Positions 44,256 through 49,665 of a DNA stretch of 64,000 bases are shown here, piece by piece (position 1 is the stretch's first letter; each line of letters starts with the position of its first letter). The stretch is from Pukyongia salina (GTDB lineage: Bacteria > Bacteroidota > Bacteroidia > Flavobacteriales > Flavobacteriaceae), in contig NZ_CP027062.1 in assembly GCF_002966125.1 (NCBI RefSeq), positions 2,046,001-2,110,000 of the forward strand, given 5' to 3'. Made by a program: the position numbers and the translations under genes. Below the pieces are notes generated by a model. That model was not told the DNA's origin. It ran no database searches and worked only from the letters and a program-made list of their open reading frames with translations.

Positions 44256-45347
44256 TTATTGGTGCTTTTTATATAAACCCAACAGGTAGTTCGCCGCCTC
44301 GAAAGGGGTTGTTTTATTATCCCCAAGGGCTTCTAGTTGCTTCTTTAACTCAGCTTTAATCCTGGGATCTTCATAGAACTCGTTCTTCAGGGCATTTTCT
44401 ATGGTTTGTAAAAGCCAAAACTCATTTTGTTCGTTTCTTCGCCTTTGGAAAAATCCGTTTGCCTTGGTTTTTTCTACATAGCGCTCAATAAGCTCCCCAA
44501 TCTCATGTATACCCTCATTCTGCAGAGCGGAACATGTGAGTGTCTTTGGCGACCAGCCGCTTTCTTTTTCAGGAAACAGATGTAGAGCACGGTTAAACTC
44601 GGTTTTAGCAAGTTTGGCGGCTTTAACGTTCTCACCATCTGCCTTATTGATCACAATGGCATCGGCCATTTCCATAATGCCGCGTTTTATCCCTTGCAGT
44701 TCATCACCGGCACCGGCAAGTTTCAACAATAAGAAGAAGTCTGTCATTGAATGTACCACCGTCTCGCTTTGACCAACACCTACTGTTTCAATAATGATAA
44801 TGTTATAGCCCGCAGCTTCGCACAGGATAATAGCTTCACGCGTTTTTCGCGCAACTCCGCCCAGGGAGGTCCCACTGGCTGACGGCCGGATAAATGCGTT
44901 TTTATCCTTCACAAGTTCTTCCATTCGCGTTTTATCGCCCAGGATACTACCCCTGCTTAGCCGGCTGCTGGGGTCTACAGCGAGTACAGCAACATTGTGT
45001 CCCTGCCCGGTGTATAGCTTCCCGAAACTTTCTATGAAGGTGCTTTTACCTACACCCGGTACACCCGTAATCCCAATCCGTAAGGAATTGTTGGCGTGTG
45101 GAAGGCAGGATTCCAGCAATTGAGCCGCCTGTTTTCGATGAGTGGTTTTGGTGCTTTCTACCAGGGTAATGGCCCGGCTAAGTGCACTTTTATCACCAGA
45201 TAGGAGGCCTTTGAGAAGTTCTTCGTTAGAAAGTGTTTTTTTTCGGCGTTCCTTTACCTTATTCGCTACCTTATCGCTAAGCGAAGAAGGAGGTGTGATC
45301 CCCTCCATTTCATGCAATGCACCTGTATTTTTACCAGACTTGCTCAC
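44256..45347 (-). CDS. meaB: Methylmalonyl-CoA mutase-associated GTPase MeaB
   Basis: 363 aa. G3E-type GTPase that loads adenosylcobalamin into B12 mutases and protects them from inactivation. Walker A ITGVPGVGKSTFIESFGKL (~92-110), AVDPSSRLSRGSILGDKTRM (switch I region), ETVGVGQSETVV (switch II), VINKADGENVKAAKLA (NKxD), and the C-terminal dimerisation arm. It stands alone, although its normal partner methylmalonyl-CoA mutase (mutA/mutB) is not in the window; IcmF 35 kb away has its own built-in G domain. Confidence 0.93.
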   Translation of the reverse strand: MSKSGKNTGALHEMEGITPPSSLSDKVANKVKERRKKTLSNEELLKGLLSGDKSALSRAITLVESTKTTHRKQAAQLLESCLPHANNSLRIGITGVPGVGKSTFIESFGKLYTGQGHNVAVLAVDPSSRLSRGSILGDKTRMEELVKDKNAFIRPSASGTSLGGVARKTREAIILCEAAGYNIIIIETVGVGQSETVVHSMTDFFLLLKLAGAGDELQGIKRGIMEMADAIVINKADGENVKAAKLAKTEFNRALHLFPEKESGWSPKTLTCSALQNEGIHEIGELIERYVEKTKANGFFQRRRNEQNEFWLLQTIENALKNEFYEDPRIKAELKKQLEALGDNKTTPFEAANYLLGLYKKHQ

Positions 45348-45404: not shown

Positions 45405-45992
45405 GTGTCGTCTTTTAACCGAACAGCAACCAAAAAACCATCATTCGTGGCAGACTCGTTCCTTATAGAGAAATGCAAACAAAACGATCGGAAAGCTCAA
45501 TTAGAGTTGTATCGAAAGTATTGCGATGGCATGTTCATCGTCGCGAGCAGATATTTAAAGGACGGAGCTGCTGCCGAAGACGCATTGCAGGAAGCGTTTA
45601 TTAAAGCGTTTCAAAAACTCGATCAGTTCAAAGGGGACGTCACCTTTGGAGCCTGGTTGAAAAGGATCGTCATCAATAAATGCCTGGATATTATCAAGGC
45701 GAGAAAGATGGAGGTTCAATCCCTGGACGACGGGGTATTACATATTGCAGAAGGAGAAGGCGATTGGGATATAGGTGAACAGGTCACAATGGACGAAGTT
45801 TATCATGCCATCGACTCGCTACCTGAGAATTACCGGGTAGTGGTAAAACTCTTTCTTATGGAAGGCTACGATCATCAGGAGATCTCGGAGATCCTGGGAA
45901 TTACAGAGAGTGCCTCCCGAACAAACCTGCATCGCGGCAAATTAAAATTGAAACAAACACTTAAACACTTGGAATATGGGACAGGATATTAG
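45405..45992 (+). CDS. ECF-type RNA polymerase sigma factor
   Basis: 195 aa. Region 2: LYRKYCDGMFIVASRYLKDG, AEDALQEAFIKAFQKLDQF and FGAWLKRIVINKCLDIIKAR; region 4: LPENYRVVVKLFLMEGYDHQ and EISEILGITESASRTNLHRG. No region 1 or 3, as in ECF sigmas. The start is GTG 45405; no ATG precedes region 2 in frame. The last 17 nt overlap the next gene, which carries the TM helix of an anti-sigma, so the pair is a signalling module whose first output gene is probably 46538-48166. Confidence 0.88.
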   Translation: MSSFNRTATKKPSFVADSFLIEKCKQNDRKAQLELYRKYCDGMFIVASRYLKDGAAAEDALQEAFIKAFQKLDQFKGDVTFGAWLKRIVINKCLDIIKARKMEVQSLDDGVLHIAEGEGDWDIGEQVTMDEVYHAIDSLPENYRVVVKLFLMEGYDHQEISEILGITESASRTNLHRGKLKLKQTLKHLEYGTGY

Positions 45993-46557
45993 AAAGATGA
46001 TGCGGGATTACAAACCCGGGACGCCAAAGTTATCGGAAGGGCATGAAAAGCGTTTTGAAGCCCGATTAGACGCTCAGTTGTCTAAGCCGGAACGACCTAT
46101 GATCTATTGGTTGAAAATAGCAGCCGTGATAGTGGCCTTTCTCGCCGTTGGTTCATTTGCCTATTTCTCCATCAATGACAAAGGTGCGGAGGATGGTCTC
46201 ACCACTGTAGAAAACACAAATACGGAAACTATTCCGGAATCTGTGATCACTTTAGGAGACCTATCGCCGGATTTGAAAAAGGTGGAATCTTATTACACAA
46301 CCGGGATAAATGTGCAATTGGCTTCGTTGAAGGTAAATGACGATAATAAGGAACTGGTGGACAGTTATATGAAACGGTTAAACGAACTCCACACCGAATA
46401 TAAAGTACTGAATAAAGAATTAAACGAAGTAGGGCCCAATGAGGCAACCATCACTGCTTTGGTTGATAATTTGCAATTGCGTTTGGAACTGCTGTTCAAA
46501 CTAAAAAACAAATTGGAAGAACTTAAAAAACAAAACAATGAGAACTATACAATATAA
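45976..46557 (+). CDS. Putative membrane anti-sigma factor
   Basis: 193 aa. Cytoplasmic N-terminus (MGQDIRKMMRDYKPGTPKLS, GHEKRFEARLDAQLSKPERP), one TM helix (~42-63; MIYWLKIAAVIVAFLAVGSF), and an extracytoplasmic helical part (~75-193) with a likely coiled coil (LELLFKLKNKLEELKKQNNE). No ZAS zinc motif. The inference to an anti-sigma rests on topology and the 17-nt overlap with the sigma gene. It also overlaps the following gene by 20 nt. Confidence 0.75.
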   Translation: MGQDIRKMMRDYKPGTPKLSEGHEKRFEARLDAQLSKPERPMIYWLKIAAVIVAFLAVGSFAYFSINDKGAEDGLTTVENTNTETIPESVITLGDLSPDLKKVESYYTTGINVQLASLKVNDDNKELVDSYMKRLNELHTEYKVLNKELNEVGPNEATITALVDNLQLRLELLFKLKNKLEELKKQNNENYTI

Positions 46558-48166
46558 AGTTTTAATCGCAGTCGCTCTGTTATTAGGCAGTACAACTCTT
46601 GTAGCACAAGTGAAAGAGACAGAGCGTTTTAACGTGAATGAAGACGTGGTGGTATCTGTAAATACGTCTTACACAAATGTTATATTCGAAACATGGAATA
46701 AAAACGAGGTGGAAGTAACAGCCTCGGTGGACGGAGACGATCTTACCCAGAAGGAAAAACAAGAGATCCTGGATAATTGGGATTATGAAGTGTTGGGAAG
46801 TAGTAAACAAGTGAGGATCACCTCTAATACCGGCGGCGGTTGGATGGGAATGGATCATCTTAGTGGTTTTAAAGGACTACACGGCCTGGAGGCTCTTAAA
46901 GCGTTGGAGAATATGGATATGCTAAAGGATATGCCAAAGTTTGTCATGCCCGATTTTGATTTCAATTTCAACGATAATTTCAATTTCGATGTAGAAACAC
47001 CCGAGTTGGATGAATTCCCAAAATGGCCTTTTAGTGGGGAGCGCCCTAATTTCAAAGACGGAAGCGAATATAATCACTACAACGTGCAACATGGTAAAGG
47101 CACTACGTTCGACAGAGGCGAATACAAGAAGAACAAGCAGGCCTATGTAGATAAATTGAACAAGAAACACAATTCAAAAGTCACCGTTCGACAGGTAGAC
47201 GATTGGTTGGTGGAAGTGGACGATTGGTCTGCCAATGTAGAGAAGGTGATGGAAGAGTGGGGAGAGAATTTCGGTAAACAATTTGGAGAGAAGTTTGGGG
47301 CCGATTTCGAAGAGAAGATGGAGAAATGGGGCGAGGAATTCGGTGAAAAATTTGGTAAAGACATGGAGAAATGGGGTGAGGAGTTTGGTGAAAAGTTTGG
47401 TAAGGACATGGAGAAATGGGGAGAAGACTTCGGTAAAGAAATGGAAGAATGGGCCAAACATTTTGAAGAGCAGGGTGGAAATTATAGTCAACAGATCATG
47501 ACCGATCCCTATGGAAATAAGACCATAATTATCCAGGGTGATAAGAAGGGAGAATATAAAAAGGTGAAAGCGATCAAGACTATCCGAATTAAAATGCCAA
47601 AAGGATCGAAAACCGAGATAAATGTAAGACACGGTGAAATAAAAATGGCCGATGCCTACAATGTAAGAGCGACATTGAACTATTCGCCATTTACAGCTAA
47701 CAGTATTGATGGGGGGAACACCCTCATCAATGCTGCTTATGCACCTGTAACAGTTAACTTATGGAACAACGGAAATCTGCTTGTAAAATATATAGACGAA
47801 TGCCGGATCAATAAGGTAAAGCGTATCGACCTGGAATCTAATTCGAGTAATGTGGATATTAATTATGTTTCGGATGTGGCCATTTTAAGCGGGTCTTTTG
47901 GCGATATCAGAATAAATGCAGTTGACGATGGATTTAATACAATACGCCTCGACCTTGATAATACAGATGCCTTTATATCCATTCCTAATACATCATTTAC
48001 GTTCGATTTCAATGGAAAACGATCCACCTTGCTGTATCCAAAATCCATGGCGCTGGATAGCAGGAAGCAAAATGGGCTCGTGCTCATAAGCGGTTACAAC
48101 CAGAACTCGAGGTCGAATAAATCCTTTACAATAAATGCGGCCTACAGCAATATAAAATTGCAATAA
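46538..48166 (+). CDS. Secreted DUF4097-like adhesin with amphipathic repeats
   Basis: 542 aa. Signal peptide ending TTLVAQ, residues ~28-95 a beta segment, ~95-200 a low-complexity part (FVMPDFDFNFNDNFNFDVET), ~238-315 repeats of W and F with Gly/Lys/Glu (MEKWGEEFGEKFGKD twice exactly, then MEKWGEDFGKE and MEEWAKHFEEQ), and ~340-542 a right-handed beta-helix-like stretch as in DUF4097 putative adhesins (IRIKMPKGSKTEINVRHGEI, LLVKYIDECRINKVKRIDLE, SNVDINYVSDVAILSGSFGD). It is expected in the periplasm or on the outer membrane. The 20-nt overlap with the anti-sigma gene makes it part of the module. Confidence 0.8.
   Translation: MRTIQYKVLIAVALLLGSTTLVAQVKETERFNVNEDVVVSVNTSYTNVIFETWNKNEVEVTASVDGDDLTQKEKQEILDNWDYEVLGSSKQVRITSNTGGGWMGMDHLSGFKGLHGLEALKALENMDMLKDMPKFVMPDFDFNFNDNFNFDVETPELDEFPKWPFSGERPNFKDGSEYNHYNVQHGKGTTFDRGEYKKNKQAYVDKLNKKHNSKVTVRQVDDWLVEVDDWSANVEKVMEEWGENFGKQFGEKFGADFEEKMEKWGEEFGEKFGKDMEKWGEEFGEKFGKDMEKWGEDFGKEMEEWAKHFEEQGGNYSQQIMTDPYGNKTIIIQGDKKGEYKKVKAIKTIRIKMPKGSKTEINVRHGEIKMADAYNVRATLNYSPFTANSIDGGNTLINAAYAPVTVNLWNNGNLLVKYIDECRINKVKRIDLESNSSNVDINYVSDVAILSGSFGDIRINAVDDGFNTIRLDLDNTDAFISIPNTSFTFDFNGKRSTLLYPKSMALDSRKQNGLVLISGYNQNSRSNKSFTINAAYSNIKLQ
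47318..47440 (+). repeat. 45-bp coding tandem repeat
   Basis: Two adjacent 45-nt copies (47318-47362, 47363-47407) encode the identical 15-residue unit MEKWGEEFGEKFGKD with several silent changes (for example GGC/GGT, GAA/GAG). They are followed by two 11-residue variants (47408-47440 and the next 33 nt). Silent divergence with protein identity indicates selection on the peptide. Confidence 0.9.
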
Positions 48167-48224: not shown

Positions 48225-48575
48225 TTAAGCGTCTTTGTTTAGTTTTTTAGTGACATAATATCCGGTGAATAAACCAAGACCAGCCATAAAGAAGATAACT
48301 CCCGGAAAGGCAACTTCCTCGTCCATTCCAAATCCCTGCACGAATCCTTCGGCAATCAAGGTCCCCAGACCAATACCCATAAGCAGAAAAGCCAGATTGA
48401 TAATAATTACTTTCCACATAGGCGTCGCTCTGCGAGTACTACTATAAAAAATAGACGCATCCGCACCTTTTTCGATGAGTGCCAGGCGTTCCTTATTTCT
48501 AGCGGAAATGTATAAATAGAAGATTCCGAAGAGAACTCCGAACATGATTGGCACTAAAATTACTTCTGATCCCAT
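48225..48575 (-). CDS. DUF6249-like small membrane protein
   Basis: 116 aa, three TM helices (~3-22 VILVPIMFGVLFGIFYLYIS, ~53-75 VIIINLAFLLMGIGLGTLIA, ~88-108 GVIFFMAGLGLFTGYYVTKK) with the cytoplasmic loop ARNKERLALIEKGADASIFY. The N/RxERLALIEKG motif after TM1 is typical of DUF6249 proteins, which often sit next to ECF sigma genes in Bacteroidota. It is divergent from the second sigma gene. Function unknown, possibly part of the same regulatory circuit. Confidence 0.75.
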   Translation of the reverse strand: MGSEVILVPIMFGVLFGIFYLYISARNKERLALIEKGADASIFYSSTRRATPMWKVIIINLAFLLMGIGLGTLIAEGFVQGFGMDEEVAFPGVIFFMAGLGLFTGYYVTKKLNKDA

Positions 48576-48713
48576 AATATTGAGTGTTTAAGATTTTAAA
48601 ATTGTTCGTTTCCATCTAAGACGGCGATGTTGACAAGCCGGTTACATTTATTTTGTAAATTATTATTCTGAATTCGATGTAACCTAACTAAGGTTCCCTT
48701 CGTCTTACACCTA

Positions 48714-49301
48714 ATGATGCAACGCGCTGACCACTATTACATTCGAAGGACGCTAAAGGGTGACACCAACGCTTTTTCCGAATTGATCACCAGATACAGA
48801 GACCTGGTGTTTACTGTGATCTTCCGTGTGGTGAAGAGCAGGGAGGAAGCAGAAGAAGTCGCCCAGGATACATTCCTTAAGGCTTTCGAATCCCTGAGTA
48901 GTTTTAGAGGCGAGGCGAAATTCTCAACCTGGCTGTATAGTATTGCCTATAGGAAAGCACTCGATCAGGTACGAAAGAACAACAGGATAAAATCTGTGGA
49001 GCTGGTTGAAGACATAACCGAAAAACAAGTACAGAAAATTGAGAATGCTCTGGACCTCATCGAACAGCAGCAGCGCCGGGAAGTTATAAATAAATGTATA
49101 GCTGCATTGGCAGACCAGGATGCTGCGATAGTTACATTTTACTATTTTGAGGAACTATCGGTACGCGAGATAGCCGCTATCACAGGGCTAACAGAAGATA
49201 ATATTAAAGTGAAATTACACAGAAGCAGAAAAAAATTGTTTACTTTGCTGAAACAATTTGTACTGCCCGAAATGACAAATAGCAATGGAAGAGCAATTTA
49301 A
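48714..49301 (+). CDS. ECF-type RNA polymerase sigma factor (second module)
   Basis: 195 aa. Region 2: LITRYRDLVFTVIFRVVKSR, EEAEEVAQDTFLKAFESLSS and FRGEAKFSTWLYSIAYRKAL; region 4: LADQDAAIVTFYYFEELSVR and EIAAITGLTEDNIKVKLHRS. It has the same length as the first sigma but clearly different sequence. Begins with two Met codons (MMQRADHYY). It overlaps the next gene by 17 nt, just as in the first module. Confidence 0.9.
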   Translation: MMQRADHYYIRRTLKGDTNAFSELITRYRDLVFTVIFRVVKSREEAEEVAQDTFLKAFESLSSFRGEAKFSTWLYSIAYRKALDQVRKNNRIKSVELVEDITEKQVQKIENALDLIEQQQRREVINKCIAALADQDAAIVTFYYFEELSVREIAAITGLTEDNIKVKLHRSRKKLFTLLKQFVLPEMTNSNGRAI

Positions 49302-49665
49302 AAAGGAAGATCGAATCTTAAAGAAACTTATTTCTGAAGCAGGTACCGAAAAGCTCGGTTCCAATTTCAATATGAAGTTAATGGAGCAAATCGAGCAACG
49401 TGCTTCCGAACGAATTCAGTATCAACCATTGATCTCTAAAAAGGGATGGGTTTTATTAAGTATTATCTTCATATTACCTACTTTGTTATATTTCACAATA
49501 CCGGTAGAACTCAATGGTCTTCCATTCGATCTGCCATGGAAAAGTCTTGGCCAAATGTTACCCGAATTTAAAATTTCGAAGGTATTTATGTACGGAACTA
49601 TATTTTTAGCCTTGTTTTTCCTACAAATTCCATTGCTGAAGAAATACGTAGAAGCTAAATATTAG
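49285..49665 (+). CDS. Putative membrane anti-sigma factor (second module)
   Basis: 126 aa. A charged N-terminal cytoplasmic domain (~1-50; MEEQFKKEDRILKKLISEAG, FNMKLMEQIEQRASERI) and two TM helices (~52-70 GWVLLSIIFILPTLLYF, ~97-115 FMYGTIFLALFFLQIPLL). No zinc motif. Its position and the 17-nt overlap with the sigma gene support an anti-sigma role; sequence homology does not show it directly. It faces the convergent lipoprotein gene 6 nt away. Confidence 0.72.
   Translation: MEEQFKKEDRILKKLISEAGTEKLGSNFNMKLMEQIEQRASERIQYQPLISKKGWVLLSIIFILPTLLYFTIPVELNGLPFDLPWKSLGQMLPEFKISKVFMYGTIFLALFFLQIPLLKKYVEAKY

Follow-up and report, generated by a model that had tools for sequence, protein, structure and literature searches.

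What a strictly periodic amphipathic helix might do inside a secreted protein encoded beside a sigma factor is the question raised by a locus of Pukyongia salina (Flavobacteriaceae), which we analyzed within a window of 64,000 nucleotides (contig NZ_CP027062.1, positions 2,046,001 to 2,110,000; coordinates below are those of the window). The protein proved to carry a Toastrack-type domain. Domains of this kind commonly accompany envelope-stress systems, and we know of no mode of sensing or signaling for them. A preliminary description of the locus had reported 15- and 11-residue amphipathic repeats with right-handed coiled-coil periodicity and under selection as peptide, a link to a sigma factor, and a DUF4097-like beta domain; it had offered a membrane-surface helix as an alternative, and had named a structure prediction and the 3-4 spacing of orthologues as tests.

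The gene for this 542-aa protein (46538–48166, + strand) is the third of an ECF sigma/anti-sigma operon whose regulators presumably act in membrane stress. It is preceded by the genes for a 195-aa ECF sigma factor (45405–45992, +; Pfam Sigma70_r2 at 6.2e-15 and Sigma70_r4_2 at 3.7e-15) and a 193-aa protein with a single transmembrane (TM) helix (45976–46557, +), and the middle reading frame overlaps those on either side. All 73 named relatives with sufficient upstream sequence carry genes for an ECF sigma factor and a single-TM protein directly upstream and co-directional, which supports the proposed sigma-factor link. The 45976–46557 product is presumed to be anti-sigma-like from its position, its TM topology and its homology to the counterpart in a second operon of the same genome (profile match, E 1.1e-21); searches of Pfam and NCBIfam returned no match for it, known anti-sigma domains included. 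A 58-row alignment delineates a short N-terminal part with a GHE.RF motif, the TM helix, and a periplasmic helical domain, in which AlphaFold predicts helices at residues 98–117, 125–152, and 156–187 (pLDDT mostly >90).

The operon is flanked upstream by a divergent gene (44256–45347, −), which we take from its sequence to encode a MeaB/ArgK-like GTPase and which occupies the same place in most relatives. On the other side, positions 48225–49665 adjoin the operon with a DUF6249 protein (minus strand), a second ECF sigma factor, and a 126-aa TM protein; the DUF6249 gene is retained in 28 of the 73 relatives and the second sigma gene in 27. Neither the surroundings of the operon start nor the region before the second sigma gene showed short repeats, direct or inverted.

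The 542-aa protein opens with a signal peptide (residues 1–24, ending in LVAQ; 46538–46609, +) that has no lipobox Cys and whose Q24 is conserved in relatives. In an AlphaFold monomer model built with 30 relatives, the signal peptide is followed by the first part of a beta-helix (residues 25–97; 46610–46828, +; strands at pLDDT about 72–90), a proline-bearing segment with short helices (residues 98–216; 46829–47185, +; low pLDDT over most of 99–149), a predicted continuous helix of 95 residues (217–311; 47186–47470, +), and the main part of the beta-helix (residues 345–542; 47570–48163, +), the last with pLDDT of 88–98 nearly throughout. Compared as a whole with VIA-align 2, the model aligned over 154–220 residues to six solved putative-adhesin/Toastrack-type structures with Z scores of 12.6–17.1, i.e., 3lyc (3lyc_L, 17.1), 3ljy (3ljy_A, 16.7), 3jx8 (16.3), 3pet (3pet_A, 15.6), 4ygu (12.7), and 4qrk (12.6), the first five being putative adhesin/lipid-binding structures. 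Foldseek alone had returned 4qrk at E 5e-3 and no match below 1e-3, a picture that VIA-align clarified. PF13349 (Toastrack DUF4097) matches 9 of the 30 relatives (best 5.9e-9), the window protein itself having no match. In a survey of Toastrack domains (PMC11237479), the domain unifies DUF4097, DUF2154, and DUF2807, and 4qrk is one of its two example structures. A Toastrack/GIN (DUF4097/DUF2807) beta-helix is thus a well-supported assignment for the beta part as modeled, in line with the domain first suspected.

It is likewise well supported that an insert of ~245 residues, consisting of the proline-bearing segment and then the long helix, enters one loop of this beta-helix; the paralogue from the same genome has only a short loop there. 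The repeats therefore belong to an insertion into a Toastrack domain and are preceded by a proline-bearing segment, and similar repeats occur in another type of ECF operon (see below), none of which the preliminary description had noted. Given the signal peptide, the lack of a lipobox, and the lack of a match in a profile search of the window protein for a T9SS sorting domain, we infer a periplasmic rather than a surface location; a pure surface adhesin or T9SS cargo is not favored, on account of the missing sorting-domain match.

The first half of the insert (46829–47104) contains runs of hydrophobic-P-x triplets across the family, with up to 13 triplets (e.g., LPELPEMPE); they are strongest in relatives L031 and L109 and degenerate in the window protein, and a run of at least five occurs in 24 of 86 relatives. 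In one further relative (L023), the insert includes a second copy of the pre-repeat segment (an extra Y.RNPQATLDRLNKKYGT part). The lengths of the proline and helix segments correlate across relatives (rho 0.62). This lends mild support to a hairpin arm in which the proline strand would lead out and the helix back, the support being weak because the correlation drops to r 0.32 (p 0.003) with phylogenetic contrasts.

The amphipathic repeats occupy residues 238–315 (47249–47482, +), where they had been placed from the start. A single chain of 3- and 4-residue steps takes in all 20 hydrophobics of this region (M238, W241, F245, F249, F253, F257, M261, W264, F268, F272, M276, W279, F283, F287, M291, W294, F298, M302, W305, and F309), while none of 20,000 composition-preserving shuffles gave an equal chain and the longest shuffled chain was 13, so that the 3-4 spacing is real. 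In order, the units measure 23 (3-4-4-4-4-4), 15, 15, and 11 residues, with a closing 3-4 half unit: the first unit has 23 residues and not the 15 originally given, and the helix is likely to break within it at GADF/GPDF. The two 15-residue units are copies of MEKWGEEFGEKFGKD (residues 261–275, 47318–47362, +; residues 276–290, 47363–47407, +) that differ in five codons, every difference being synonymous; they are followed by the 11-residue unit MEKWGEDFGKE (residues 291–301, 47408–47440, +). Tandem Repeats Finder reports the array as 2.8 copies of a 45-base period. The structure prediction does not render the repeats as disordered but places them in the later part of the continuous helix 217–311, whose block-mean pLDDT is ~92 at the start (confident to about residue 240) and drops to ~44 near the end; over the repeats it is about 44–81, i.e., low to moderate, in a monomer model to which pairing is not visible.

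This grammar is shared across the family. Protein searches of 199 Flavobacteriaceae genomes gave matches in 128, some of them possibly plain Toastrack proteins, and 79 loci emerged when named genomes were scanned, from genera including Aureitalea, Altibacter, Ulvibacter, Aequorivita, Dokdonia, Bizionia, and Winogradskyella, the closest record (97%) being an uncultured Flavobacteriaceae bacterium. When 296 genomes sampled across the phylum were searched, profile matches at E ≤ 1e-15 were confined to the window protein's own family. In 86 distinct relatives, successive ME.WG units were nearly always 11 (96×), 15 (50×), 19 (44×), 23 (39×), or 27 residues (18×) apart, and 249 of 264 distances equaled 3 modulo 4 (11+4n): the 3-4 spacing is retained, and the unit consensus ME.WGE.FGK. 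is lengthened by four-residue FG.K-like cassettes. In 11- and 15-residue units, conservation of the M, W, and F positions is 86–100%. The 23-residue units carry a Pro at their 18th residue (GPDFE) in 62% of cases, which reads as a helix start following a break, and some relatives continue into MEQR-type helical sequence. Unit number differs among close relatives, e.g., [27,11,11] versus [27,11]. Against six close relatives (59–97% identity), dN of the repeat region was 0.000–0.095, the lowest of any gene region in four comparisons and no more than 0.003 above the minimum in the remaining two. Together with the kept spacing, this low dN indicates strong constraint on the peptide itself, beyond that on the DNA array, and the synonymous-only differences between the copies had already pointed to selection on the peptide. 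The matched stretch of relative L123 includes an in-frame TAA, possibly marking a decaying copy.

Next, we considered the geometry that this spacing imposes. Hydrophobicity of residues 261–311 repeats every 3.715 residues/turn (median 3.705 in 41 relatives), and the concentration of M/W/F on one face is 0.88 at this period versus 0.59 at 3.6 and 0.11 at 3.5, where the strip is nearly lost. Since core periodicities above 3.63 residues/turn correspond to a right-handed supercoil (PMC4786415), the observed 3.70–3.72 is a right-handed periodicity, as originally proposed. At 3.715 residues/turn, Gly lies at +85 degrees, Lys at −136 degrees, and Glu opposite the M/W/F stripe, which the glycine stripe flanks on one side only. 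Gly at every fourth position is unusual for soluble coiled coils. Helix geometry and one-sided glycine stripe fit a right-handed, glycine-assisted coiled coil, in which the 19- to 27-residue units would need breaks because they exceed a comfortable coiled-coil periodicity.

Right-handed hendecad and pentadecad coiled coils (PMC4786415) have the 11/3 and 15/4 periodicities in common with the window helix, which differs by its regular Gly stripe and its added 19-, 23-, and 27-residue units and is known here from a monomer prediction. The GxxxG repeats of FliH/YscL (PMC2674601) and glycine-zipper helices are likewise soluble helices of variable length with Gly at every fourth residue and aromatic neighbors. 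In FliH, however, Tyr/Phe follow Gly (x1 of GxxxG) and hardly ever occupy x2 or x3 (PMC2674601), whereas the window helix has W/F before Gly (x3) and 3-residue resets that produce the 11+4n units, and thus departs from the FliH type.

We then looked for similar helices elsewhere. Searching its own genome with a helix-only profile returned the 542-aa Toastrack protein as sole match, and the same profile matched 21 of 80 genomes of another Flavobacteriales family (f55). The f55 gene set comprises an ECF sigma factor, a TM protein, and a 385–455-aa protein, to which some genomes add a periplasmic protein of ~160 aa that has ME.W repeats and ends in a Pro tail; a sigma gene lies near the match in 14 of 17 regions, one of the other three stopping at a contig edge. 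The 385–455-aa protein has N-terminal ME.WGE repeats, in most cases a Pro-rich linker, and then an outer-membrane beta-barrel (PF13568 at 30.1 bits versus a cut-off of 27 in one protein). This operon can be likened to Dma2, a dual membrane-spanning anti-sigma of Bacteroides that ties an ECF anti-sigma factor to the outer membrane (PMC13088901), although Dma combines a disordered tether and beta-barrel in one protein (PMC13088901) while f55 uses separate genes and helical repeats. Because repeats of biased composition score easily, the ME.WG-like helices may share ancestry or only chemistry. It is conceivable, if doubtful, that the 11+4n ME.WG helix and the Pro-rich linker form a periplasmic module that ECF systems of Flavobacteriales can move between proteins, mounted on at least two unrelated scaffolds (Toastrack; outer-membrane beta-barrel, plus the small periplasmic partner), which would dock envelope proteins in register and report to anti-sigma factors.

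Other profile hits were set aside. The YggN/DUF2884 profile (PF11101) weakly matched 13 of 30 relatives, with scores of 17–22 bits (17.1 and 22.1) below the gathering cut-off of 30.6; in the window protein, it is the helix that matches. YggN is listed in regulon data as a sigma-E regulon member, but E. coli YggN has no ME.WG pattern. As a control, a reversed copy of the window helix matched Yae1_N at 1.4e-5; since this chance match was the better one, we took the DUF2884 match as an effect of composition and rejected homology. Matches to the profiles of kinetoplastid KMP-11, TipAS, and fulvocin were all sub-threshold, and a profile search of the sequences of solved structures gave chance-level matches only (best 0.0055; apolipoprotein A-I 0.096). 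One distant hit (L143), from a remote family within the phylum, is a protein that looks PspC-like by eye, carries a FG.EAE..GEKFG helical repeat, and sits beside a LiaF-like gene.

The origin of the insert can be examined through the second operon of the same genome (about 2683000–2686000 of the genome), where the gene after those for ECF sigma, anti-sigma, and Toastrack encodes a DUF2807 protein (185 bits). Its 361-aa Toastrack protein has neither insert nor helix, and its alignment to the profile of the window protein's family (E 9e-8) ends at residue 100, where the insert starts. As plain sigma/anti-sigma/Toastrack triplets also occur in other Flavobacteriales families (L125, L124) and homology stops at the insert, the best reading of the latter is that it arose within a single branch.

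The published Toastrack proteins offer a first comparison. In the survey by Ravi et al. 2024 (PMC11237479), Toastrack proteins have the beta-helix fold and the sigma-factor/membrane-stress association in common with the window protein, which differs by its signal peptide, the lack of the PspC/LiaF TM part, and the ~245-residue proline and helical-repeat insertion; we found no description of such an insertion in the passages of the survey consulted. There, Toastrack domains are argued to be intracellular in the fusions studied (PMC11237479), a placement that the signal peptide contradicts for the window protein's family.

How, then, might the arm work? Our leading reading, still tentative and with somewhat less than even chances, is that of a Toastrack protein acting in envelope stress in the periplasm, whose inserted arm docks or oligomerizes by helix pairing and so relays the state of the Toastrack part to sigma release. 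Specifically, the proline-bearing strand would lead out of the beta-helix loop and the long acidic alpha-helix back into it; the Met/Trp/Phe stripe at steps of 3-4-4-(4)n, with its glycine flank, would pair in a right-handed coiled coil, either with a second copy of the arm or with another periplasmic helix, for which the helical domain of the neighboring anti-sigma protein is the most plausible candidate; and occupancy or assembly state of the Toastrack part may thereby be relayed to sigma release.

We regard as the main rival, though an unlikely one, a ligand- or client-binding arm, whose acidic, aromatic-lined surface would catch unfolded outer-membrane proteins or antimicrobial peptides of cationic type, leaving control of the stress regulator to the Toastrack part. 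The repeat helix is strongly acidic, with a net charge of −13 over 74 residues (238–311) and a negative charge in 98% of relatives, and its aromatic residues are nearly invariant. The same two-part logic is found in LiaX of enterococci, an envelope-stress protein in which an exported helical domain senses antimicrobials and a PF13349 domain restrains the regulator (PMC10269926). LiaX appears to be the closest worked-out parallel to the window protein, to which it is likened by description and not by sequence; its helical domain is N-terminal and serves the LiaFSR three-component system, whereas that of the window protein lies within the beta domain. A loose binding surface, however, would not require the rigid 11+4n register.

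Less probable still is a helix lying flat on a membrane leaflet, of the apolipoprotein/LEA-like 11-residue-repeat type, and reporting or buffering lipid packing. Its 11-residue periodicity and W/F/M face would suit the window helix, and a similar f55 neighbor protein weakly matches an apolipoprotein profile (21 versus a cut-off of 90 bits). Yet a membrane-surface helix would be expected to have a neutral or positive net charge and a HeliQuest D above about 0.7, and the window helix, at −13 and a HeliQuest-like D ≤ 0.29, has neither. Its acidity and low score thus disfavor ordinary anionic-membrane binding and weaken the membrane-surface option of the preliminary description. Moreover, the stripe needs 3.70–3.75 residues/turn, and on a straight helix of 3.6 each 15-residue unit would drift by 60 degrees. 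Finally, a length-variable spacer without specific contacts, growing by slippage so that only reach counts, would account for the variable unit number and the correlated segment lengths but is very improbable given that no region of the gene has a dN clearly below that of the repeats and that their M, W, and F positions are conserved.

Taken together, the helical-arm Toastrack protein is genuine, conserved, and well bounded, and the combination, for which the preliminary description knew no family, is described in none of the sources searched, i.e., Pfam, NCBIfam, and the literature. The Toastrack domain here adjoins a sigma factor of its own, and about two thirds of the sampled Flavobacteriaceae genomes have a member of the family (some possibly with plain Toastrack proteins). 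Because the arm is regular, removable, and absent from the paralogous operon of the same cell, its role is directly testable, and its quantized 11+4n units provide a clean natural series for right-handed, glycine-rich helices.
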